From positions 1 through 64,000 of the forward strand of contig JAFKJB010000013.1 in NCBI GenBank assembly GCA_017306155.1: a stretch of DNA of 64,000 nt, given 5' to 3'. The notes beneath the pieces are model-generated. The model had not been told where the DNA came from. It made no database searches and was given only the letters and a program-made list of their open reading frames with translations. The position numbers and the translations under genes are program-made. This DNA is from Nitrosospira multiformis. GTDB taxonomy: Bacteria; Pseudomonadota; Gammaproteobacteria; Burkholderiales; Nitrosomonadaceae. This document shows positions 29,852 through 60,612 of this stretch, piece by piece. Numbering within the stretch: the stretch's first letter is position 1; each line of letters begins with the position of its first letter.

Positions 29852-31285
29852 ATGCTCTACATTTCCACTCGTGGCGGCATGCCGCCTAAAAAATTCTCCA
29901 GGATTCTTCTCGGTGGCCTTGCTCCGGATGGCGGGCTGACGATGCCGGAAGCCTATCCGAGGTTCGACAGCGCACAACTGCAGGAACTGCGTGGCATGGA
30001 TTACCGGGAGCTGGCGTTCGAGATCCTTTCGCGTTTTGCGAATGACATTCCTGCCCCGGACTTGCGCGGTATCATTGCGCGAACTTATACCGCCCAGTCG
30101 TTTCAAAACGATGAAATCACACCGCTTAAAACCCTGGAACCGGGGTTGCACATACTCGGTTTGTCGAATGGGCCAACGCTGGCTTTCAAGGATATCGCCC
30201 TGCAATTGCTGGGCAACCTGTTCGAGTATGCGTTGGACAAGAGTGGCGAGCAACTGAATATCCTCGGCGCAACTTCCGGCGATACCGGGCCGAGCGCAGA
30301 GTATGCCATGCGGGGCAAGCGCGGCATTCGTGTGTTCATGCTTTCGCCGCATGGGAAAATGAGCCCATTCCAGACAGCTCAAATGTTTTCCCTGCATGAT
30401 CCGAATATTTTCAATATCGCGATCCGTGGCGTGTTCGACGATTGCCAGGACATTATCAAGGCTGTCAGCAATGATTATGCGTTCAAGCAGAAATACCGCA
30501 TCGGTACGGTTAATTCCATAAACTGGGCGCGCATTGCCGCTCAGATCGTTTATTACTTCAAAGGTTATTTTGCCGCCACCCGCTCGAATACGGAGCAGGT
30601 ATCTTTCGCCGTGCCATCGGGAAACTTCGGCAACATTTGTGCCGGGCATGTAGCACGCATGATGGGTCTGCCTATCAAAAAGCTCATACTTGCCACCAAT
30701 GAAAATGATGTGCTGGATGAATTTTTCCGGACGGGACATTATCGTCCGCGCACAACCGCCGAGACTGTGCAGACCAGCAGCCCTTCGATGGACATCTCCA
30801 AGGCCTCCAACTTCGAGCGCTTCATTTTCGACCTGGCTGGAAGGGATGCCGCCAAAGTGAAGGAATTATGGCAGGCAGTAGATGAGGGCGGCGCCTTTGA
30901 TCTCGCCAATACGCCCCTGTGGGAGAGAGTCGCCGACTTCGGTCTTGTGTCGGGAACCAGCAGTCATGCAGATCGAATCGCAACCATCCGCCGGGTGCAT
31001 GACCGGTATGGCCTGGTGATAGACCCGCATACAGCTGACGGTGTGAAAGCGGGATTGGAACATCGTGACGCCAATGTGCCGCTGATCTGTCTTGAAACGG
31101 CATTGCCCGTCAAATTCTCGGCAAGCATTGTCGAGGCAATCGGACATGAACCCCTGCGTCCGGCCGGGTATGAGAATATTGAAGAAAAAGCGCAGCGCTA
31201 TATAGTCATGGATGCGGATGCGGGAGCGGTCAAGGCGTTTATTACGGAGCAGGCGGGGCAGGCACAAACCGCGCCTGAGGCATGA
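29852..31285 (+). CDS. thrC: Threonine synthase
   Basis: A 477-residue PLP enzyme that converts O-phosphohomoserine to threonine. The start MLYISTRGGMPPKKFSRILL is the usual N terminus of the family's long form. K113 in LAFKDIALQ is the PLP-binding lysine, followed by ILGATSGDTGPSAEYA and VPSGNFGNICAGH, the phosphate-binding turn. The length fits the proteobacterial type. It lies after hom on the same strand and completes the last steps of threonine synthesis except homoserine kinase, which is not in the window. Confidence 0.96.
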   Translation: MLYISTRGGMPPKKFSRILLGGLAPDGGLTMPEAYPRFDSAQLQELRGMDYRELAFEILSRFANDIPAPDLRGIIARTYTAQSFQNDEITPLKTLEPGLHILGLSNGPTLAFKDIALQLLGNLFEYALDKSGEQLNILGATSGDTGPSAEYAMRGKRGIRVFMLSPHGKMSPFQTAQMFSLHDPNIFNIAIRGVFDDCQDIIKAVSNDYAFKQKYRIGTVNSINWARIAAQIVYYFKGYFAATRSNTEQVSFAVPSGNFGNICAGHVARMMGLPIKKLILATNENDVLDEFFRTGHYRPRTTAETVQTSSPSMDISKASNFERFIFDLAGRDAAKVKELWQAVDEGGAFDLANTPLWERVADFGLVSGTSSHADRIATIRRVHDRYGLVIDPHTADGVKAGLEHRDANVPLICLETALPVKFSASIVEAIGHEPLRPAGYENIEEKAQRYIVMDADAGAVKAFITEQAGQAQTAPEA

Positions 31286-31333
31286 GCTAGCGATGAGACG
31301 GGAGGTGGAGCCCCGTAATAAGCGCGGGCGCCA

Positions 31334-32110
31334 TTATTCACGCTGCTTTTCGGCTGCAGCAAGAAAATCATCCAATATGGGACCGGAATCGAGCAGGTCT
31401 GTGGCCGGACCATGGAATTCGGGATGCCATTGGAATCCCGTCACGTAATTATCTCCGTGCATGCGTATTGCTTCGATGATGCCGTCAGACTCGGACACTG
31501 CCTCGACCATGGAGTCCCGTCCCAATTCCTTGATTGCCTGATGATGTATGCTATTGACAAGGTGTTGGTAGCGATTGCCATAGAGCTTTGCCAATCGGGA
31601 ATTTTCTCCAATCAGCAACGCATGCCGATGCTGGTCATATAACACCGCATCCACGTGAATGAGGCATTCCGGGCGATCTGTCGCGATATCCTGGTACAGG
31701 CTTCCACCCAACGCTACGTTGATGAGCTGGAGCCCGCGGCAGATCCCCAATACCGGTTTTCTTTGTACCACACATTCCCAGAAAAGCTCCATTTCGTAAA
31801 GATCACGCACCCGGTCGCCGGACCACTCCGGCCGGTGAGGCGTTTCACCGTAGGAAACGGGAGATACATCCGCGCCGCCTTGCAGCACCAGGCCGTCGAT
31901 TTCCCGGACGTAGTCGCTTATGCGCACATGAGAACGCTCGACGCCGCCGGTTTCTATTGCCGGCAACATGAATGCCAGTGCTCGTCGGCGCATGATCCAG
32001 TGGGCGACAGTCTGTTCAAGGTATTGCAGGGTTTTGTTGCGAAAACCCAGTTCAGGGGGCGGCTGATGGAGGATACGCGGGGACAGGCCGATACGCAACG
32101 GGCGGGGCAT
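31334..32110 (-). CDS. Gamma-glutamyl-GABA hydrolase-like class I amidotransferase (peptidase C26)
   Basis: A 258-residue protein with the C26 catalytic triad: nucleophile C124 in GICRGLQLINVALGG, H229 and E231 in GFQWHPEFH. An early GLVLQGGADVSP forms the oxyanion region. PuuD-type enzymes of this family cleave gamma-glutamyl-GABA in putrescine breakdown. No puuA/B/C genes are nearby, so the substrate may be another gamma-glutamyl compound. It lies downstream of the GCS2 ligase on the same strand, with a ~210-base gap that contains a repeated TTACATATAG motif. Confidence 0.9.
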   Translation of the reverse strand: MPRPLRIGLSPRILHQPPPELGFRNKTLQYLEQTVAHWIMRRRALAFMLPAIETGGVERSHVRISDYVREIDGLVLQGGADVSPVSYGETPHRPEWSGDRVRDLYEMELFWECVVQRKPVLGICRGLQLINVALGGSLYQDIATDRPECLIHVDAVLYDQHRHALLIGENSRLAKLYGNRYQHLVNSIHHQAIKELGRDSMVEAVSESDGIIEAIRMHGDNYVTGFQWHPEFHGPATDLLDSGPILDDFLAAAEKQRE

Positions 32111-32322
32111 CTCAGGTAACGAATGAGTCCTCAGAAATATGAATGTAATTAGATTTTGGAATTTCCGCGGTGTTCTCGTTACATATAGGTTACATATAGA
32201 TAACTAGATAACTTTGCGCTCTCCTTTACATTGCCTTAGGCAATCGATGTTGCGCTACTTTGTTCCGCTGGTTTTTCTCATCGATTCAATCTAACTGACA
32301 GTTTTGACACTCATCATGAGAA

Positions 32323-33438
32323 TCAGTTTCCCATCCATAACTCGGCTTGCAATTGCATGACGTCGGCAAGGTTGTGCTCGTTGGCATAAGCCCTGCGCTG
32401 CCAGCTTGTACCGTTGCCGACGATGAGTATTTCGCGGATGCGTTCCATTGCTTCCCCCGCACGCAGTTCTCTTGCGTGGTCGGAAATGTGTTCGAGCATC
32501 TCCATTATATCTTCCCGGATACTGCGCTGCTGGTGGGTACGAGGATCGATAAAGACGCCTTCCAGGCCAAAGCGGCATGCCTGGAAGCGATTGAACGTAT
32601 ACACCAGATAGTCGTCCTCTTCGGGTGCCGTACGCTGCTCTACCATGATGTATCTGGACATGGCCTGGATATAGCAGGCAATGGCAGCCGCAATCTCGAC
32701 TGTAAGAGGCGTGTCGCACACCCTCACCTCGAGGGTGCCGAATTCGGGCTTTGGCCGTATATCCCAGTAAAAATCTTTCATGGATTCAACCACCCCCGTT
32801 CCCGCCATTTTGGCAAAGAATTTTTCGAAATCGTTCCAGCGCAATACAAAAGGCGCTCGTCCACTTAACGGAAAGGAAAAAACGGAGTTCAGCCGCGCAG
32901 AGGCAAAACCGGTATCATGCCCCTGCACAAACGGCGAACTGGCCGACAGGGCAATAAAATGCGGAATGTAGCGCGAGAGCATATGCATCAGATGCAACGC
33001 TTCGTCCGGACCGGGACAGCCGAGGTGTACGTGCTGTCCGAATATCGTGAATTGTTTAGCCAGATAGCCATACAGTTCCGAGAGGTAATGAAAGCGCGGC
33101 GCATCGGAAATCTTCTGCTCGCTCCAATGCTGGAACGGGTGCGTGCCTCCGCCTGCAACAGCAACGTTGAGAAAGCGTCCGGCATCGGAAACAACATCCC
33201 GCAGGGCACGCAGTTCCGTTACCAGTCCCGCATAGTCCTGCTGCACCGAGGTGTTGATCTCTATCATGCTGCGCGTCATTTCCGGCTTGATTTCCCCGGG
33301 ATGGGTGCGTTTTGCTACGCGGCGCAAAATCTCGGGTGCCGAAGGGGCGAGGTTATAATCGTTGCAGCCAAGCAACTGCAGTTCAAGCTCCACTCCTATG
33401 CTCAGGGGACGGGAGGGCGCGAAGGGCATCAGGCTCAT
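32323..33438 (-). CDS. Carboxylate-amine ligase, GCS2 (YbdK-like) family
   Basis: An ATP-dependent ligase of the glutamate-cysteine ligase type 2 family. Signatures are SIGVELELQLLG near the N terminus, EIKPEMTRSMIEINTSV, GGGTHPFQHW, FGQHVHLGCPGPDEA and DIRPKPEFGTLEVRVCDTP. The start chosen (ATG 33438, MSLMPF) gives 371 residues, the usual family length. A longer frame to 33522 would run into the 3' end of the antiporter gene and adds a basic low-complexity tail. YbdK shows weak gamma-glutamylcysteine synthetase activity; the true substrate is open. It follows the antiporter by ~10 bases, so the pair is probably one operon. Confidence 0.9.
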   Translation of the reverse strand: MSLMPFAPSRPLSIGVELELQLLGCNDYNLAPSAPEILRRVAKRTHPGEIKPEMTRSMIEINTSVQQDYAGLVTELRALRDVVSDAGRFLNVAVAGGGTHPFQHWSEQKISDAPRFHYLSELYGYLAKQFTIFGQHVHLGCPGPDEALHLMHMLSRYIPHFIALSASSPFVQGHDTGFASARLNSVFSFPLSGRAPFVLRWNDFEKFFAKMAGTGVVESMKDFYWDIRPKPEFGTLEVRVCDTPLTVEIAAAIACYIQAMSRYIMVEQRTAPEEDDYLVYTFNRFQACRFGLEGVFIDPRTHQQRSIREDIMEMLEHISDHARELRAGEAMERIREILIVGNGTSWQRRAYANEHNLADVMQLQAELWMGN

Positions 33439-33448
33439 GGCATCAGAT

Positions 33449-34657
33449 TCATGTTTTTTTTTCCGGTGTTTCCCCGGCCCGGCGCAGGGCAACTTGCACC
33501 AGAATGGGCCCGGCCAATTCAAGTATGACGATCCAGCTCATCAGCACCATTCCAAGGCCGAACGCGAATTCGGGGAAATCGATTGCAGTATCCAGGGTCA
33601 GGAGAAGCGCCACGCTTGACATGGGGACCAGTGCAATGCCGAGTGATATCGCCTGGCGCCAGCCAATGCCGCTGTGGGTTGCCAGAGGCAGTACGGCCAG
33701 CAGCTTTGCAATGATTCGTACGACGATAAGCAGCAGAACCAGTAAAGAGCCATCCCGCAAGCCTCTGAGGTCAGCTGCCAGACCATTCGCGATAAACATC
33801 AATACCACCAGAACAGCACCGGCGGAGCCGAAGTGCGGCGGGAACGTGCGGGTGTGTTTGCGCTGGTAGCGGGTGATCAATCCGGCAGCAAGCAGGACAA
33901 GGATAGGGCTGAGCCTGAGCGTCGAGGCCATGATGGTGGCAAAGGCGATCATGCCGAACAGGATAAAGGAAAAAGTTTCCTCGTGCTGTCCGAGGTGGTG
34001 ATGGATGCGTTCGAAGGTAATGCCGAACAACCATGCCAGCAACGCAGACCCCCCGAGGAGGTAGAGCGGGGGGAATATGGTATGCACGAAGCTCGTGCCC
34101 GCCTGACCGTGCATGACGGCAATCGCCAGCTTGTGGAAAATCACCGCATAGATGGTGTTGAGCGCTGTCATGAGCAGGAGCCGATCGGTTACCTGGCCCT
34201 GAGCGCGGGATTCCGTTACGGTGCGTACTATGATAGCGGGTGAAGTGGCGATTGCGATGGTTGCAACGACGGCAGCAGCAGTGCTGGTAACATCAAGCCA
34301 TACCAGCACCGAGAAGACAGCTCCAAAAGTAGCGATGGCTTCGAGAAGACTGGTGCCCGCAAGCCAGGGGTTGGCTTTCAGCCAGCGCAGATTGACCTTG
34401 CTGCCCAACTCAAACAGGAGAATCCCAAGTGCGAGATCAACCACCAGGCGCCACTCGTCCACGGGAAGCTGAGGGATAAAACCCAATCCACCTGGTCCCA
34501 ATATTGCGCCAATGCCGATATAACCAACTATCCGGGGCAGCCTCAGATGACGTACCAGCGCTTCGCCTAGAAGTACAGCGACAACGAGTGTGAGCGCCAG
34601 CCACAGCGCTGGACTGATTTGAAGCGGCCAGGCTGGAAGATAATCAGACCAGGTCAT
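33449..34657 (-). CDS. Kef-type (CPA2) monovalent cation:proton antiporter
   Basis: A 402-residue membrane protein with about 11-12 hydrophobic segments. RLPRIVGYIGIGAILGPGGLG near residue 45 and LALGILLFELGSKV are typical of Kef/CPA2 antiporters. The usual cytoplasmic TrkA-N (RCK) domain of KefB/KefC is absent, so it is a membrane-domain-only form with no visible ligand gating. It is co-oriented with and only ~10 bases before the GCS2 ligase. Kef systems are glutathione-gated, so the pairing with a glutamate-cysteine-ligase-like gene is suggestive. Confidence 0.9.
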   Translation of the reverse strand: MTWSDYLPAWPLQISPALWLALTLVVAVLLGEALVRHLRLPRIVGYIGIGAILGPGGLGFIPQLPVDEWRLVVDLALGILLFELGSKVNLRWLKANPWLAGTSLLEAIATFGAVFSVLVWLDVTSTAAAVVATIAIATSPAIIVRTVTESRAQGQVTDRLLLMTALNTIYAVIFHKLAIAVMHGQAGTSFVHTIFPPLYLLGGSALLAWLFGITFERIHHHLGQHEETFSFILFGMIAFATIMASTLRLSPILVLLAAGLITRYQRKHTRTFPPHFGSAGAVLVVLMFIANGLAADLRGLRDGSLLVLLLIVVRIIAKLLAVLPLATHSGIGWRQAISLGIALVPMSSVALLLTLDTAIDFPEFAFGLGMVLMSWIVILELAGPILVQVALRRAGETPEKKT

Positions 34658-35332
34658 GCATTTATGATCAAGTGCTCCTGAGGATGAAGAACCGGCATGA
34701 GACTCATCCGACCGCTGTAAACGTTACTGTAAGATACATCAGTGCCTCCTTCAGGCAAATACGGATATTGGATCTGTTCAAATCCGGTAAAAACCGGCCA
34801 GATCCGAAACTGACTCCAGAAAGCGTTGTATTTTTTACTGCTTTTGCGGGATTGTGAATGAGGTATTGAGTCAATATTGGGAGAGATGCCCGGATTATAA
34901 ACCATGAATCGAAGCAGGGATAACTCTTCGAAGCTGACGAGTATGGGCAGACCGCAGTTTTTCTCATGATAGTGACCCTCAGGGAATTTTCAGTTGCGCG
35001 GCAGTCCGGGATATGTGATGGGACGAACAGACAGGCGCGGGTTCGATGTTCAATAATTTCCAGGCTCTTTTTCAGCGGGCGGAGATGCAGAAAAGGATCC
35101 GGCTCTCAGGAGTGGTTTTGAAACAACGATCCGAAAATTTCGAAAGTTTTGCCCTGCTTTTATACCTTTTTACCTTAACCAGCCCTCTCTTCGAAAATCC
35201 CGGGCTGCGGGCGACCTGACCTCAGCCTGCTTCCCAAATGGGCGAGATAGAGGCATGGAACCCGGGGAATGAAGGTGATCGGCAGATCAGGTCAAGCAAA
35301 TTGTTTCGCTCATACGGAAAAACGTAGAAAAA
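34658..35332. other. Divergent intergenic region before putA
   Basis: About 675 bases between two divergently transcribed genes. I see no convincing gene. One 57-codon frame (35046-35219, plus strand) has no family or ribosome-binding site. The promoters of the antiporter operon and of putA should lie here, but no clear -10/-35 pair stands out. Confidence 0.5.
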
Positions 35333-38300
35333 ATGGTCATCTACCCCCGATTTTTGCGCGCTGCAATTACCAGTGCGTATCGGCGCAATGAGGTTGAGAG
35401 CGTGAATGGTTTATTGAGCCAGCTCGATTGGCCGCCGCACAGCCGCGCGCGAACAGAGGAACTCGCCCGTGAGCTGGTGACCTTGATGCAAGGCAAACAT
35501 AGCCATAGGGGAAGCATAGTTGCATTGATGCACGAATTTTCCCTGTCGAGCCAGGAAGGTATAGCTCTGATGTGCCTCGCCGAGGCGCTGTTGCGCATTC
35601 CGGACCGGGAAACCGCGGATCGCCTCATACGGGACAAGATTAGCAAGGGCGACTGGCGCGCACACGTGGGGCACAGCCCTTCGCTTTTCGTAAACGCGGC
35701 GGCCTGGGGCCTGCTGATCTCTCGCAAGCTGGTTTCGACCCATAGGGAGGACGGGCTGTGGGCCGCACTATCGGAACTGGTGAAGAAGGGAGGTGAGCCC
35801 CTGATTCGCAAAGGAATGGATCTGGCGATGCGTGTGCTGGGCCATCAGTTCGTGATTGGCGAAACCATCGAGGAGGCGCTGGAGCGTAGCCGGGAGCGCG
35901 AGATGCAGGGGTATCGTTATTCGTACGACATGCTGGGTGAGGCGGCAATAACGAAGGCCGATGCCGAGCGCTACTGTGCTTCTTACACCTCGGCCATCCA
36001 TGCCATTGGCAAATGGAATGGCGGGTGTGGTGTTTACGAGGGACCGGGAATTTCCGTAAAGCTTTCCGCATTGCATCCGCGCTACGTTCGCTCGCAACGC
36101 GAGCGTGTGATGGCTGAGCTGCTGCCACGTCTTAAATTACTGCTGCTGCTTGCGAAGCACTATGACATGGGTCTCAACATAGATGCAGAGGAAGCCGATC
36201 GGCTCGATCTCTCGCTCGACCTTCTGGAGGCACTTGTGTTCGACCCGGATCTTTCGGGTTGGGATGGCATCGGCTTTGTCATCCAGGCCTATCAGAAGCG
36301 ATCCCCGTTCGTTGTCGACTGGCTCATCGCCCTTGCGCGCCAAAGCGGTCGCCGCATTATGGTTCGCCTGGTCAAGGGCGCGTACTGGGATGCGGAAATC
36401 AAGCGTGCACAGGTAGAGGGGCTGGATGGCTATCCGGTTTATACGCGCAAGATTCATACCGACATATGTTATATGGTTTGCGCCCAGAAGCTTCTTTACG
36501 CGATGGAGGCGGTCTATCCCCAGTTTGCCACCCATAACGCGCACACATTATCAGCCGTACAGCAGATGGCCCAGGATGCGGGTGTCGAAGGTTACGAATT
36601 CCAGTATCTGCATGGGATGGGCGAAAGGTTATACGACCAGGTCGGGTGTCTGGCGGAGGAGGATCGGTTTGCAAAGCCGTGCCGTGTCTATGCGCCCGTA
36701 GGCAACTACGAGGCGCTGCTTGCTTACCTTGTGCGCCGCCTGCTTGAAAATGGCGCAAATTCGTCATTCGTCAATCGCATTCTCGACGACGCTATCAGCA
36801 TAAAAGAGCTGGTTGCGGATCCGGTCAGCCAGGTCGAGCAGGAGGGAGTGCATCCGCATCCGGCGATTCCCTTACCCTGTGATTTATACGGTCACAAGCG
36901 GAGGAATTCGGCAGGCCTCGATTTCAGCGACGAGCAGGCGCTGGCCAAGCTGGCTGCTGAATTGGCTGAAATGGAAAGGCGTGAATGGCGGGCGGAGCCT
37001 GTGCTTGCAGACGATGGGCATGCCGGAAATGGAGGTTCACCGGTTCTCAATCCGGCTGATCATGCCGATTCCGTTGGCATTGTGATAGAGGCGACCGGGC
37101 GGGATGTCGAAGGGGCGATCACAGCCGCGCACGCGTTCGTGTCCGAATGGCAAAGTACCCCGAATGAAGCGCGGGCTGCAATGCTTGAACGGGCAGCGGA
37201 TGCACTGGAAGCGCACCGTACGGAACTCATGGGGCTGGCGGTACGCGAAGCTGGCAAGTCGTTACCGGATGCCGTCGCGGAAGTGCGTGAAGCAGTTGAT
37301 TTCTGTCGTTATTACGCTCAACAGATACGCGACCGGTTCAGCACCGATCCACCTTCAGTGCTCGGCCCTGTAGTCTGCATCAGTCCCTGGAATTTCCCCC
37401 TGGCAATATTCATTGGCCAGGTAAGTGCCGCGCTTGCTGCGGGCAATCCCGTACTTGCGAAGCCAGCCGAGCAGACGCCCTTGATTGCCGCCGTTGCCGT
37501 CAGGCTGCTGCATGAGGCTGGCATTCCACGGCCTGCGTTGCAGCTTTTGCCCGGACGGGGCGAGAAGGTTGGAGAGCAGCTTGTCAAAGATGTTCGTGTG
37601 CAAGGGGTCATTTTTACCGGCTCAACGGAAGTCGCGCAACTCATTCATCGTACGCTCGCTCTTCGTTCACAGAAAGGTGAGATCCTCTTCATCGCTGAAA
37701 CCGGAGGCCAGAACGCGATGATCGTCGATTCGTCAGCACGTATCGAACAGGTCGTGCAGGATGCGTTGACATCGGCGTTCGATAGCGCGGGACAGCGTTG
37801 CTCGGCGCTGCGTGTGTTGTGCCTGCAGGAAGACATCGCTGAACAGGTGCTGGAGGTTCTGAGAGGCGCGATGATGGAACTCACGGTGGGTAATCCCCGG
37901 CGGCTCGCTACTGATGTTGGCCCGGTGATTGATGCAGAGGCTCAGCACGCGTTGCTCGATCATATCGAAAAAATGCGCGCGGCAGGTCATACCGTGTTCC
38001 AACCGGCGTTGCCGTCGGCTTGTACGAACGGCATCTTCCTCGCGCCTACCCTGATCGAGATTGACCGCATAGATGAGCTGGAACACGAGGTGTTCGGGCC
38101 GGTGCTGCATGTCGTGCGTTTTGCCCGCGAGCGATTGGGCGAACTTGTTGCCCAGATCAATGCGACGGGATATGGATTGACGCATGGTATTCACAGTCGC
38201 GTCGATGAGACCATTGATTTCATTACCAAGCGTGTGCATGCCGGCAACATCTATGTCAATCGCAATATGATCGGTGCCGTAGTCGGTGTGCAACCCTTTG

Positions 38301-57044: not shown

Positions 57045-57299
57045 CTATTCATTCACCTCCTTCCACTTCGCCGCCGCGAGACAAGCCGCTTCCCGCAGAG
57101 TGGCGGCGCTGCTTCTGATTTCATCGCAATGGAGAGTGAAGCCAGCGCAAGATTGCGGTGTCGAGCGATTATAGATGGCCTGGTCACAGTATTCGCTTAA
57201 CCAGTCCAGTATCTCGGTATCCGAGAGATCACAGGGGGCAGGACGATGTTCGGTCCACGCTGCCATCCAGCTCATCCATCGTCCCACCCCGTTTCCCAT
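57045..57299 (-). CDS. Small accessory protein, 84 aa, likely phage-like
   Basis: A soluble protein with LSDTEILDWLSEYCDQAIYN, a central GFTLHCDEIRSSAATLREAA, and a short AAAKWKEVNE tail. I do not recognise the family, but the composition recalls small early-region proteins of prophages. GAGGGAGA precedes the start. It is the first gene downstream of the leftward promoter-operator region at 57527-57582, with a ~225-base leader that contains the hairpin at 57478-57519. Confidence 0.6.
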   Translation of the reverse strand: MGNGVGRWMSWMAAWTEHRPAPCDLSDTEILDWLSEYCDQAIYNRSTPQSCAGFTLHCDEIRSSAATLREAACLAAAKWKEVNE

Positions 57300-57477
57300 C
57301 ACGCTCTCCCTCGCTCTGCCATAGTTTGCCCTTTCAAGTCGGGCTCAAGTTCCGCGCCAGGCACGGCCTGGATATTTCTTTATGCCTTTCCCTTCCCTGA
57401 CCGCTTGTCTTTCGACGCCCTGAGGGTCTTAATCGATCGAGGCTATGCCTGAGGCAGGCTGCACGTCTGTTTCACGG

Positions 57478-57519
57478 ATGCTGCAACACCAGGACCGAGT
57501 AACTGCGGTGTTGCAGCAT
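57478..57519. repeat. Strong hairpin in the leader downstream of the leftward promoter
   Basis: ATGCTGCAACACC (57478-57490) and GGTGTTGCAGCAT (57507-57519) are perfect 13-base complements around a 16-base loop. It starts a few bases after the expected start point of the leftward promoter at 57527-57555. There is no T-run, so it is not a plain intrinsic terminator. Confidence 0.75.
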
Positions 57520-57526
57520 GGAGAGC

Positions 57527-57582
57527 ATATTACAAGTATTACTTGTAATTGTCAAGACATACTTGTAAACAAGTTTGCCTTG
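57527..57582 (-). promoter_or_regulatory. Leftward promoter with three tandem CAAG-N5-CTTG operators
   Basis: Three copies of CAAG-N5-CTTG at 57533-57545, 57553-57565 and 57570-57582. On the minus strand TTGACA (57550-57555), a 17-base spacer and TAATAT (57527-57532) form a near-consensus sigma-70 promoter. The first operator lies wholly inside the spacer and touches the -10 box, so bound repressor would block the polymerase. It matches the region at 59050-59112 in both site and geometry. The regulated gene is the 84-residue protein at 57045. Confidence 0.8.
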
Positions 57583-57620
57583 TTTACAAGTATGGAATGG
57601 AAGGAGGGTTGAGTTTTGAG

Positions 57621-57947
57621 TTAACGGCCGGGGACCCTGACGAAAGGAATTTCAGCCTGGCGCTCGTGCGTTCTGCCAGGGCCGAATTCCATCACATGAT
57701 CATCATGAAGGATGACTGAATAATCGACAGTATTCGGATAGGGTCCACTGAACAAGGACCAGGTGTGCCGACGATCGATATAGAGCAATGCCTCATAATC
57801 GCCGCTGCGCTGATAGCCGTCCGGATTACCCGCAATATTTATCACTTGTGCTTTTGTCATGCCTTCCCGGACGCCTGACATTTTTCCTGTGATGACACAC
57901 GAAGAAAGCACCAGCATACTGAACAAGGCAACAATAATATTTTTCAT
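57621..57947 (-). CDS. BamE/SmpA-like small lipoprotein
   Basis: A 108-residue exported lipoprotein: basic start, hydrophobic core, lipobox LSSC with C17. The mature part begins VITGKMSGVREGMTKAQVIN and continues with IAGNPDGYQRSGDYEALLYI, the 'G-M-T-x-x-Q-V' turn and small beta sheet typical of BamE/SmpA and related lipoproteins. It is probably not BamE itself (too short, unlinked). AGGAG precedes the ATG. It is the last gene of the minus-strand group behind the XRE repressor. Confidence 0.75.
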   Translation of the reverse strand: MKNIIVALFSMLVLSSCVITGKMSGVREGMTKAQVINIAGNPDGYQRSGDYEALLYIDRRHTWSLFSGPYPNTVDYSVILHDDHVMEFGPGRTHERQAEIPFVRVPGR

Positions 57948-58046
57948 ATGAGCTCCTGATCAATAAAAAAGGCGAAAAAAAAGAATAAGACATAAACTAT
58001 AAAATCAGTACATTATTTCATGCTAAATTTCAGCTTTCCGGATAAA

Positions 58047-58268
58047 TCAGCTCTCCAGTTCCCGGATAAGCAATGCGACTTCCGCTACTTCACCCAGCAC
58101 TTCCTTTACTGCCTGCTCAAGTGTATACCTCCTTTTTTCGAGTTCCCGCAATTCCTCGGGGAATTGCATAATATATTTGTCACGTTTTGCACGTGCCTTT
58201 TCTGAAACATGAAAAGCGAGCAGCATCTCCGTGCTGTCATACGGCAGTCTGTTTGCTAATGGTCTCAT
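58047..58268 (-). CDS. Small helical hypothetical protein, 73 aa
   Basis: A highly charged soluble protein that is probably one or two long helices (KRDKYIMQFPEELRELEKRR, TLEQAVKEVLGEVAEVALL). There is no known family and only a weak ribosome-binding site. It lies between the XRE repressor gene and the lipoprotein gene, all on the minus strand, so it could be transcribed with the repressor. Confidence 0.5.
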   Translation of the reverse strand: MRPLANRLPYDSTEMLLAFHVSEKARAKRDKYIMQFPEELRELEKRRYTLEQAVKEVLGEVAEVALLIRELES

Positions 58269-58482
58269 GATGGCAGGAGCGTTACTGGCATATCACTGGT
58301 CCAGATTATTGTAAGGCGCACCACTCTTCTATTGTTCCGATGATATTTACGAGTGGGCGACGGGAATATGTTTCGTATTTCCGTATATATATTTTCTTTT
58401 TATAAACATGCTACTACAGCATGGTCAGCCTCGGCGTCTGTCACTTTTGCGACGATCTGGTCCGTGCCTGGAAAACTGGCGT

Positions 58483-59037
58483 CTATCTGATTGCCGTCTT
58501 TCCTCTGACCTTCGTTCTACTCTCGGGCATCCGACGCGGAGGAAAAGCTGGAGGTGGATGAGGAGGCAGATCCGGTACCGGCAACGGTTTCAAATCTACC
58601 GAAGGGACCGCTTCAACCACTTCGGCAGATGTTTCGCCGACCAGGGCTTTGCTTATTGTTACCAGGCGGGCTGCATCTTCTTTCGACATGCGCCGCATTG
58701 CTTCGACAACCTGATCGATAAGCGCATCGTTCTCCGAAGCCGGTTTCTCAGCGATGCGGGGAGAAGTACCTCGGGTTCCACGTGCCAGATTCTCCGGCTG
58801 AGGCGATACAGTAGTATCAGGCACAGCCGGAACTTCCAGTGACATCCCGAAGTGCATCATCGCTGGAGGCAGCTTGAGCACTTCCGCGATCCTGTTCAGT
58901 CTTTTCCCGCGAGGCTGCGTAGCACCGGATTCCCACTGCTGAACCGCTTGCGGAGAGACGCCCACGAGCTCCGCCAGCTCCGACTGGTTCAGTTCAAGCT
59001 TTTCGCGCCCTTCGCGAATTATCCGCGCAATGTCCAT
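58483..59037 (-). CDS. XRE-family repressor (CI-like), 184 aa
   Basis: The N-terminal helix-turn-helix (MDIARIIREGREKLELNQSE, then LAELVGVSPQAVQQWESGATQP) is a typical Cro/CI-type DNA-binding domain. The remainder is a low-complexity linker and a helical part (ALIDQVVEAMRRMSKEDAAR), ending in a Pro-rich tail. No LexA-like Ser-Lys peptidase is seen, so cleavage control is unlikely. The ATG at 59037 is chosen; a TTG at 59052 also exists. The two operator clusters flanking the gene region (57533-57582 and 59050-59106) carry the same palindrome, and the nearer one starts 13 bases upstream of this start, which suggests it represses itself and both outward promoters. Confidence 0.88.
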   Translation of the reverse strand: MDIARIIREGREKLELNQSELAELVGVSPQAVQQWESGATQPRGKRLNRIAEVLKLPPAMMHFGMSLEVPAVPDTTVSPQPENLARGTRGTSPRIAEKPASENDALIDQVVEAMRRMSKEDAARLVTISKALVGETSAEVVEAVPSVDLKPLPVPDLPPHPPPAFPPRRMPESRTKVRGKTAIR

Positions 59038-59049
59038 GCCATCATAATA

Positions 59050-59112
59050 CAAGCAATTCTTGCACCCCGCTTACAAGTTTCCCTTGACATCTACAAGTAA
59101 AACTTGTAATAA
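59050..59112 (+). promoter_or_regulatory. Rightward promoter with three tandem CAAG-N5-CTTG operators
   Basis: Sites at 59050-59062, 59074-59086 and 59094-59106, centre-to-centre 24 and 20 bases. TTGACA (59084-59089), a 17-base spacer and TAATAA (59107-59112) form a rightward sigma-70 promoter. The third site fills the spacer right up to the -10 box, exactly as in the leftward region. The first site is adjacent to the repressor gene start. The layout resembles lambda-type operator regions with three sites. Confidence 0.8.
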
Positions 59113-59320
59113 TATCTTTCATTGGAAATCTTCAAGCAAAAAAGGTTCGCCCATCACAGTGGACCACAAAGCAATGCCACTTATCGTCGAACAAATGGCT
59201 CTGCACCCTGAATGACTACAGATGCACCGGGTGCCTATCAGCAACAACCTGTGGCACAGGCATTCACAAAGGACGGCTGCAATCATGGTGGAAAATTTTT
59301 AAGGAATCAGAGGGTAACCA

Positions 59321-59551
59321 ATGAGAACGGGTATCAGAAGATCAGACACCGAAAAGAACGGTATACGCTTGCCTCTTGAGCGTTGGGAGTATGGAAATCC
59401 AGAAGCGGTTGCAGAGCGCAGACAGGCCCGGTCATGCCATGGCTGCCGGCATGAATCGAAAATCCGGATGGGGTGGAATAACCTGGAGTTTTGTGAAAAA
59501 GGGCGAAAACACGGCATTCGTTGTACATTTTTTTCAAAAAAGGGAATATGA
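59321..59551 (+). CDS. Small cysteine-rich (possible zinc-binding) protein, 76 aa
   Basis: Basic protein with CHGC, then two single cysteines in LEFCEKGRKHGIRC, a spacing that could bind one zinc ion. Similar short Cys-motif proteins are common in prophage early regions. It has purine-rich sequence (AAGGAATCAGAGGG) ahead of the ATG. It is the first supported gene after the rightward promoter, and its stop is only three bases before the next gene. No family name can be given. Confidence 0.55.
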   Translation: MRTGIRRSDTEKNGIRLPLERWEYGNPEAVAERRQARSCHGCRHESKIRMGWNNLEFCEKGRKHGIRCTFFSKKGI

Positions 59552-59554
59552 AAA

Positions 59555-60079
59555 ATGAAGTTTAATGATCCGCAGCATGCATTGAGCTGGGCATATGAAA
59601 CCACTAGCCGTCCGATCGTAAAAATCTCATCCGTTAACGCAATGCGTGGAGCTGAAAGAGCAGGGGAGGGGGGCGCAAATGATGAATTGACCGCGTATGA
59701 TCTTCACGCGCAGGCAGCGCTGATTCTAAGTCTATGCAAGCGCATATTATCCGATCTGCATATGGCGTACATAAATGTTCAATTCGGCCGGGAAGCGAGC
59801 GGCTTCGATCTGCTCAGCCGGCACCTCGCTGCAAATTTTGGGACGGGAATCCACAATCGTAGAGGTATCGAGCAGATAATTCGCGCCTACTGCGGCCAAA
59901 AGATCGGGTTGCGTGAAATCAGGAAAACCATGGCCTGTGGAATGCTCAAGGCAGCCTCATTGCGTAATCGCGGCTATGATGCGCTCGATCTGCTTCATGA
60001 TCAGGCAATGGATATGCTGCAAAGGGAGATGGAAAGCCGCGGCCTGCTGCGGAACCCGCGGGTCAGTGAAATGGCGTAA
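59555..60079 (+). CDS. Hypothetical protein, phage-early-region-like, 174 aa
   Basis: A soluble helical protein (MKFNDPQHALSWAYETTSRP, SSVNAMRG, QAALILSLCKRILSDLHMAY, GIHNRRGIEQIIRAYCGQKI). The C-terminal half, with GQKIGLREIRKTMACG, looks like a DNA-binding helix-turn-helix. I cannot name the family. Its position at the end of the rightward transcript after a CI-like switch is where phages often place an antiterminator or late activator, but this is only positional inference. Confidence 0.65.
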   Translation: MKFNDPQHALSWAYETTSRPIVKISSVNAMRGAERAGEGGANDELTAYDLHAQAALILSLCKRILSDLHMAYINVQFGREASGFDLLSRHLAANFGTGIHNRRGIEQIIRAYCGQKIGLREIRKTMACGMLKAASLRNRGYDALDLLHDQAMDMLQREMESRGLLRNPRVSEMA

Positions 60080-60321
60080 TTAGACCAGACCAGAAGAAGA
60101 TCGAGCTGGTATGCCGTAAACTTCCTGCCCCGGCTCGATCCCGGTTCTGCGCCGATCCAGAATGGAGTTCTGTAACGGCTCTGTCTTTTTTCAGGTTGAG
60201 TACGCCACCGCACAGAATTAGTCTGCTGATTTATGCAATTCTCAAATGGTATGAACACGGACAGAACGGTGAGTACCGGATCTGTTTTATCACAGATAAT
60301 CTACCCTCGAAGAATTTACCT

Positions 60322-60612
60322 ATGAGAGAGAAGACGACTATCGTTTCAGTAGGAATGAGCGGACTCGTGATAGTAATGCTTGCGGGATGCGGTACCCGCA
60401 CCACCCAGGAAGACGTCAGATCCGTTGACTGGTATGAGGCGCATGCAACGGAACGAACTGCAAAGCTAAATGATTGCATGACCAATCCGCATACGCTGGA
60501 TGCAACGCCCGATTGTGTCAATGCGAGCCGTGCTGAAAATAACGTTAAAGCAACGACCAAGTGGGCTACGCCAGACGAAGGTGTCCGCACTGAGCCCACT
60601 ATAAGCAATTAG
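60322..60612 (+). CDS. EexN-family-like lipoprotein
   Basis: A 96-residue lipoprotein: start MREKTTI at ATG 60322, lipobox VMLAGC with C23. The mature part SVDWYEAHATERTAKLNDCM followed by ATPDCVNAS matches the EexN pattern (VDWY..H..ER..KL..C, then D..C.NA). EexN-type lipoproteins are encoded on conjugative plasmids and elements and are linked to entry exclusion. No conjugation genes are in the window, so it may be an orphan. A longer in-frame reading from 60196 has no signal peptide and is rejected. Confidence 0.75.
   Translation: MREKTTIVSVGMSGLVIVMLAGCGTRTTQEDVRSVDWYEAHATERTAKLNDCMTNPHTLDATPDCVNASRAENNVKATTKWATPDEGVRTEPTISN

Follow-up and report, generated by a model that had tools for sequence, protein, structure and literature searches.

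What does a bacterium gain from a phage-type genetic switch that has no phage around it? The question is raised by a locus of the ammonia-oxidizing soil bacterium Nitrosospira multiformis, at positions 57,045 to 60,079 of the 64,000-nucleotide (nt) stretch of contig JAFKJB010000013.1 (assembly GCA_017306155.1) analyzed here and called the window. In this locus a repressor gene of the XRE type lies between two clusters of palindromes, each with a promoter. An earlier reading made from the letters alone, hereafter the sequence-only reading, had seen in this a lambda-type layout and proposed either a relic or a domesticated switch driving small genes. Our analysis, which followed the module through 22 of the 23 genomes of the genus, supports the second of these proposals. 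The locus is likely to be an early-control region that stems from an ancient prophage of the lambdoid type, was domesticated before the Nitrosospira species diverged and has been inherited vertically since. We regard it as neither a relic nor a working prophage.

Operators and early promoters

The palindrome CAAG-N5-CTTG occurs six times in the window, in two clusters at just the places where it had been reported: at 57533, 57553 and 57570 on the left, and at 59050, 59074 and 59094 on the right. Dinucleotide shuffles hold 1.16 copies on average and 0 of 100 get to six, and none of 300 windows simulated with a first-order Markov model contained a pair or triple within 60 base pairs (bp); the clustering is far beyond what either control produces. 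A genome-wide search for the palindrome, proposed earlier as a check, gave a divided answer. The bare 13-mer is common and unremarkable, with 49 matches against 43 for a backwards control pattern, but the extended form TACAAG-N5-CTTG-NNA has five exact matches in the genome and all of them fall within the two clusters. The rightmost three sites are called OR1 to OR3 below and the leftmost three OL1 to OL3; OR3 fits the extended form with one mismatch, and the site at 57570 (OL3) does not fit it. Across the genus, 48 of the 52 listed matches to TTACAAG-N5-CTTG-NNA lie inside the module and four outside, and the regulon therefore looks local. Those four are lone operator-like sites in genomes G007, G008, G009 and G012, and the G008 and G009 sites resemble each other and could represent a single conserved site.

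Each cluster is built into a divergent early promoter. The leftward promoter PL (57527–57555, minus strand) reads TTGACA, a 17-nt spacer and TAATAT; the rightward promoter PR (59084–59113, plus strand) has TTGACA at 59084 and a spacer of 17 or 18 nt to TAATAA or AATAAT. In both, one operator takes up the spacer and abuts the -10 box, as the sequence-only reading had it, and a second overlaps the -35 box. On the left (all minus strand), OL1 (57533–57545) occupies the PL spacer in 22/22 loci, OL2 (57553–57565) overlaps the -35 box and is present in strict form in nine of the 22, and OL3 (57570–57582) is confined to the window genome. The number of strict OL sites is thus one in 13 loci, two in eight and three in one, so that the two matched three-operator promoters of the earlier reading do not hold as a general feature. 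On the right (all plus strand), OR1 (59094–59106) sits in the PR spacer, OR2 (59074–59086) over the PR -35 box, and OR3 (59050–59062) in the spacer of the repressor's own promoter, PRM. All three are found with fixed geometry in every one of the 22 loci: OR2 and OR3 are always 24 bp apart, and OR1 and OR2 are 20 bp apart in 18 loci and 19 bp in four.

It should be said that a plain promoter scan of the window is by itself not beyond chance (4 found, 4.1 expected). PL and PR are convincing because they are conserved, and not because of the scan. In the alignment of the OR region, the conserved bases are almost confined to the operators and the promoter boxes.

The repressor and its own promoter

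The repressor gene (58483–59037, minus strand; 22/22 loci) reads left from an ATG at 59037 and lies between both operator clusters, which bears out the lambda-type layout that had been recognized earlier. Its product carries a helix-turn-helix (HTH) domain of the XRE/HTH_3 type (PF01381, E 2.1e-15). The nearest solved structures are P22 C2 (E 1.8e-7) and the 434 repressor, and the nearest NCBIfam model is DicA (E 3.8e-15; 55.9 bits, below the cut-off of 101), which is also the top hit by coverage in the repressor search of phages. Of the 19 Pfam matches with E no higher than 1, none is to an S24 peptidase domain, and induction is therefore not expected to proceed by LexA-like self-cleavage.

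The predicted PRM was not part of the sequence-only reading, and it stands in the same operator register as PL and PR. Its -10 box, TATTAT at 59044–59049 (minus strand), abuts the operator at 59050; there is no recognizable -35 box (AAGCGG at 59067–59072), the centre of OR2 falls near -43, and the predicted start is approximately the A of the repressor ATG. Over the 22 loci the -10 box is TATTAT in 15, TATCAT in five, and TACTAT and TATGAT in one each, and in 17 loci OR3 lies exactly 13 nt from the ATG.

No cro gene was recognized after PR: in 19 of the 22 loci the stretch from PR to the first gene has no open reading frame (ORF) of at least 40 amino acids beginning with ATG or GTG (shorter ORFs and TTG starts were left out of the search), and the ORFs found there in the other three loci match no Pfam family.

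Conservation and inheritance across the genus

The rightmost gene of the module, p174, was found in 22 of 61 genomes searched, and these make up 22 of the 23 genomes of the genus. The exception, G002, is an assembly that is 80% complete and also lacks a dapA match. In these 22 genomes the repressor is also matched strongly and over its full length; in other genera the matches are weak and fall on the HTH part. The 18 loci with a named host all belong to Nitrosospira or Nitrosovibrio, the nearest being strains of N. multiformis. In all 22 loci the order is p85, OL/PL, p108, p73, repressor, OR/PR and p174. The flanking genes add to the evidence for a shared locus: an acyltransferase gene lies within the fetched stretch in 8/22 loci and the exo/endonuclease gene in 12/22.

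The module is inherited vertically within Nitrosospira, its divergence following that of dapA. When five module genes are concatenated, their distances among the 22 genomes run parallel to those of dapA, with a Mantel r of 0.926, a value reached in 0 of 2000 permutations (largest 0.41). The genes are under purifying selection. The ratio of nonsynonymous to synonymous substitution rates (dN/dS), taken from pairs with dS below 1 that are not independent of each other but of which none comes near 1, is 0.13 for p174, 0.17 for p85, 0.15 for p73 (range 0.07–0.15), 0.21 for p108 and 0.26 for p76, and 0.20 and 0.14 for the DUF1376 and DUF6475 genes that many loci carry. The repressor gives 0.22 as a whole, 0.05 for the HTH and 0.38 for the remainder.

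These data leave little room for a decaying prophage relic without function, the other proposal of the sequence-only reading. Replication-type genes have indeed been lost in the five loci of the N. multiformis group, and no integrase or structural genes adjoin the module. However, retention throughout the genus, dN/dS below 0.4 for every gene tested and the fixed operator geometry contradict decay, and we consider a relic highly improbable.

p174, a candidate antiterminator

The last gene after PR, p174 (59555–60079, plus strand; 22/22 loci), fits no Pfam, PHROG or NCBIfam family. When a profile of 25 members was run against the PDB at E up to 1, the sole chain returned was AlpA of Pseudomonas aeruginosa, aligned over almost its full length (E 0.036). 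With this profile AlpA scores 15.2 bits, and the best of 5000 shuffles reaches 6.8; a profile restricted to the 22 module members gives 14.6 bits against 8.2. A direct comparison with hhalign gave P 3.4e-5, a value for that one comparison. In lambdoid phages, gene Q lies after the nin and rus genes and before the terminase genes. Relatives of p174 occupy such a position in two Nitrosospira prophages, after RusA and before terminase in L053, and after NinB and before terminase in L054. Taken together, the similarity and the gene order suggest that p174 is probably an antiterminator of the AlpA/Q type, a part of the module that the sequence-only reading had not described.

What such a protein would act on was also considered. 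No conserved promoter was found downstream of p174. A gene transfer agent (GTA) or a split prophage served by p174 was rejected, PF04860-type portal genes not being genus-wide (other portal types, such as the P22-type of L053, were not searched). The motif TWCGCYRSCGCACAGA, located at 60201–60216 of the window, was tried as a late promoter or target and was rejected as well: it occurs at 20 places in 16 of the 23 genomes, of which 11 follow p174 in the module and 9 lie off it; a control pattern matches once in 23 genomes. The sites off the module often precede lipoprotein-like and other host genes, and the motif is possibly a host promoter element. In the window it is followed by p138 (60196–60612), which encodes an EexN-family lipoprotein (NF033894, E 9.1e-16, above cut-off) with related genes elsewhere in the genus. 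Both the motif and p138 are treated here as host features outside the module.

A structured RNA in the PL leader

The second new part is an RNA. Between PL and p85, on the minus strand, the predicted transcript opens with a hairpin (57479–57519) at its 5' end, followed by a folded element of about 150 nt (57328–57478). The element is noncoding, 147–150 nt long and 88% identical on average. It is found in one copy each in 21 of the 23 genomes of the genus, and was not found in the 58 other genomes of the 81 searched by DNA similarity. G017 lacks its 3' half and was left out of the alignment. The consensus fold has 33 pairs, with 655 of 660 cells paired and 45 of the cells G-U. Seven pairs carry changes on both sides, compared with 1.5 in shuffles (0/500 as many) and 0–3 in slid controls; these figures come with one control inflated by relatedness and with a structure derived from the same alignment that was used for testing. 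In the 5' hairpin, aligned over 14 loci, double changes occur in 4 of 11 pairs, and the other seven leaders have a different, shorter hairpin. Further pair types are not above shuffles (102/500 for the element, 433/500 for the hairpin). A coding region was ruled out by single-base insertions that shift the frame between species, and the opposite strand was set aside since the pairs fit the PL strand better (655 against 611 of 660 cells). A rightward terminator-like hairpin with a T-rich tail lies inside the element at 57357–57371 and may be a second role of this stretch. The leader is a candidate RNA family, proposed from covariation and absent from Rfam 15.

What the RNA does can be approached from two directions. 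It could be a cis-acting, protein-free antiterminator like the put RNA of phage HK022, or exert some other transcriptional or translational control on the PL transcript. The leader begins at the predicted PL start, is highly conserved and structured, and is not accompanied by an N-like basic protein after PL; putL of HK022 is likewise described as lying directly downstream of its PL. Yet put is described as about 70 nt with two stem-loops, placed at both PL and PR, whereas the leader here is about 190 nt and found at PL only. Only one short gene follows, about 30 nt on. Moreover, shuffled versions of the window leader reach fold energies just as good (z -0.11), and neither the window stretch nor any of five loci gives an Rfam match at gathering score. 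We keep this as a possible reading, with the balance leaning somewhat against it.

Alternatively, the locus may be a toxic operon of the dic kind, in which the PL leader is processed to a trans-acting small RNA and p85 acts on the host, both silenced by a DicA-like repressor as DicF and DicB are. The repressor's similarity to DicA favors this, as does the shared logic of repressor, RNA and small protein. In G017, p85 is intact although the 3' half of the RNA is gone, and p85 therefore does not need the RNA. On the other hand, DicF is described as far shorter than the leader and as part of an operon of several genes, and p85 resembles no known division inhibitor. A dic-like operon deserves attention, though we would put its chances below even. 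Equally tentative is our own broader proposal. In it, the PL leader would be a structured RNA of a new class, which a whole genus of ammonia oxidizers has retained throughout its history within a domesticated lambda-like switch. Acting as a protein-free antiterminator or as a regulatory RNA, it would form, together with an antiterminator of the AlpA/Q type, a host regulator of two stages that serves no phage any longer.

Other genes and links to phages

The remaining genes are small. The first and only module gene after PL is p85 (57045–57299, minus strand; 22/22 loci), for which the ATG at 57299 was used, the listed ORF beginning at a GTG at 57302. It has no significant match in Pfam, PHROG, NCBIfam or PADLOC, and a relative with 37–42% identity is found in prophage locus L056. 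To the right of PR lies p76 (59321–59551, plus strand; 18/22 loci), a small protein with four cysteines that are invariant in 17 aligned sequences; in one locus, G007, it is split into two frames. DUF1376 and DUF6475 genes are found between PR and p174 in 17 loci and are missing from the five loci of the N. multiformis group, the window included. In addition, nine loci (L039–L041, L044–L048 and L051) have a Gly- and Gln-rich ORF between DUF6475 and p174, with no significant family match.

The two genes that follow the repressor on the same strand, p73 (58047–58268, minus strand), a conserved small protein, and p108 (57621–57947, minus strand), are present in 22/22 loci. The latter is lipoprotein-like and weakly similar to BamE/OsmE (PF04355, E 0.0059; OsmE, E 0.0025; both below cut-off). 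In lambda, rexAB follow cI. The module could accordingly be an independently acquired defective prophage or satellite, reduced to its immunity region and kept for superinfection immunity, with p73 and p108 as rex-like exclusion genes. Their constant place behind the repressor and the look of p108 agree with this. But the module follows the divergence of dapA, immunity alone leaves the conserved p174, p85 and RNA unexplained, and the composite operator-promoter pattern is absent from IMG/VR, so that no matching phage is known. We find this explanation unlikely.

A phage origin of the module itself is indicated by the closeness of its repressor to P22 C2 and 434, by DUF1376/primosomal PHROG matches, and by relatives of p174, DUF1376, DUF6475 and p85 in Nitrosospira prophages. 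The prophages L053, L054 and L056 carry these relatives in varying combinations, together with other repressors. Tyrosine integrase (PF00589), in keeping with the sequence-only reading that no integrase is present, has eight matches in the genome and none on the window's contig, C20 (serine recombinases were not searched). Structural genes were not seen beside the module, as judged from the ORF lists of four relatives and the PF04860 search, whose one match in the window genome is on contig C26. On that contig of the window genome (G000), integrase and portal matches stand close together at 30147–37303, probably in a separate prophage.

Database searches returned few counterparts. In INPHARED, no record covers at least 80% of the repressor (163 partial matches), and none matches p174, the leader RNA or AlpA. 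IMG/VR holds five relatives of p174 and 80 of the repressor, the latter of low identity and mostly across the HTH; nothing there matches the RNA core, and of 67 stretches found with a 15-base RNA pattern, 0 match the RNA model.

The favored reading and how the switch may work

Under the reading favored here, a domesticated early-control region, the repressor would bind OR1 and OR2 to shut PR, and OL1 (plus OL2 where present) to shut PL. From OR2, which is centred near position -43 of PRM, a promoter that lacks a -35 box, it would activate its own leaderless transcription, which OR3 within the PRM spacer would limit. Once repression is lifted, PL would yield the 5' hairpin, the folded element and then p85, and PR would yield p76 and p174, preceded in 17/22 loci by the DUF1376 and DUF6475 replication-type genes. 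The p174 protein would probably load onto RNA polymerase as AlpA and Q do and allow reading through a terminator.

Several observations weigh against this account. The AlpA match is weak, with E rising to 0.14 and 0.19 in --max runs; the hhalign alignment covers residues 3–125 only and ends before the HTH; and p174 matches no PHROG antiterminator family. In prophage L056 the NinB-like ORF comes after p174, unlike the usual order. PF04860-type portal genes are present in only 7 of the 23 genomes, and there is therefore no conserved structural cluster of that type for p174 to serve. The gap between OR3 and the repressor ATG is 52–60 nt, not 13, in five loci, and p76 was not found in four.

Most known cases of domesticated phage switches, such as dic of Qin and alp, come from one strain or one species, while here the parts have been kept together genus-wide. 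Since operators, geometry, repressor, probable antiterminator and RNA are all retained, the genus provides 22 natural versions of the switch for comparison. The module offers a direct route to asking how a repressor-antiterminator circuit benefits a bacterium in the absence of its phage, and the candidate RNA family sits in the ammonia oxidizers, a group central to nitrification. No description of the locus was found in the literature searched, which left out most subscription papers and preprints.

Comparison with known systems

With the immunity regions of lambda, P22 and 434 the module shares a repressor gene of the XRE type between OL and OR, three OR operators, divergent early promoters with operators in their spacers, and a near-leaderless self-promoter without a -35 box and with OR2 near -43. 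Unlike these, it has no recognized cro, no S24 domain in the repressor and no integrase or structural genes nearby; it is inherited vertically throughout a genus, has mostly one or two OL sites, and has a long structured RNA after PL. With two defining features failing (cro and S24), and usually a third (the three OL sites), we do not count it among the lambda switches.

The other comparisons draw on published descriptions (for HK022 put, the Caulobacter GTA and alpR-alpA, PMC7969949, PMC9371919, PMC11150451 and PMC9378689 jointly). In HK022, too, the PL transcript opens with a structured RNA, put, from which the present leader, known from sequence, differs in size, architecture and its single location. 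In the regulation of the Caulobacter GTA (RogA, GafYZ), a repressor controls an antiterminator, as is proposed here, and the latter serves phage-derived genes; no genus-wide HK97-type portal cluster was found in Nitrosospira. In P. aeruginosa, alpR-alpA-alpBCDE combines a chromosomal, prophage-derived repressor with a Q-like antiterminator, a part that is predicted for p174. AlpA, an antiterminator, is described as forming a ring within the RNA exit channel, and its targets are known; AlpR is autocleaved after DNA damage, which sets it apart from the present repressor with no S24 domain.

In the Qin prophage of E. coli, dicA-dicBF is a lambda-like switch as well, in which a cryptic prophage repressor without a cleavage domain silences an operon of an RNA and a small protein. 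According to PMC10448788, dicC takes the role of Cro there and Rem that of an antirepressor. No counterpart of dicC or Rem was found in the module, and its RNA is larger and present genus-wide. Judged by these likenesses, dicA-dicBF and alpR-alpA would be the nearest working analogues of the Nitrosospira switch.

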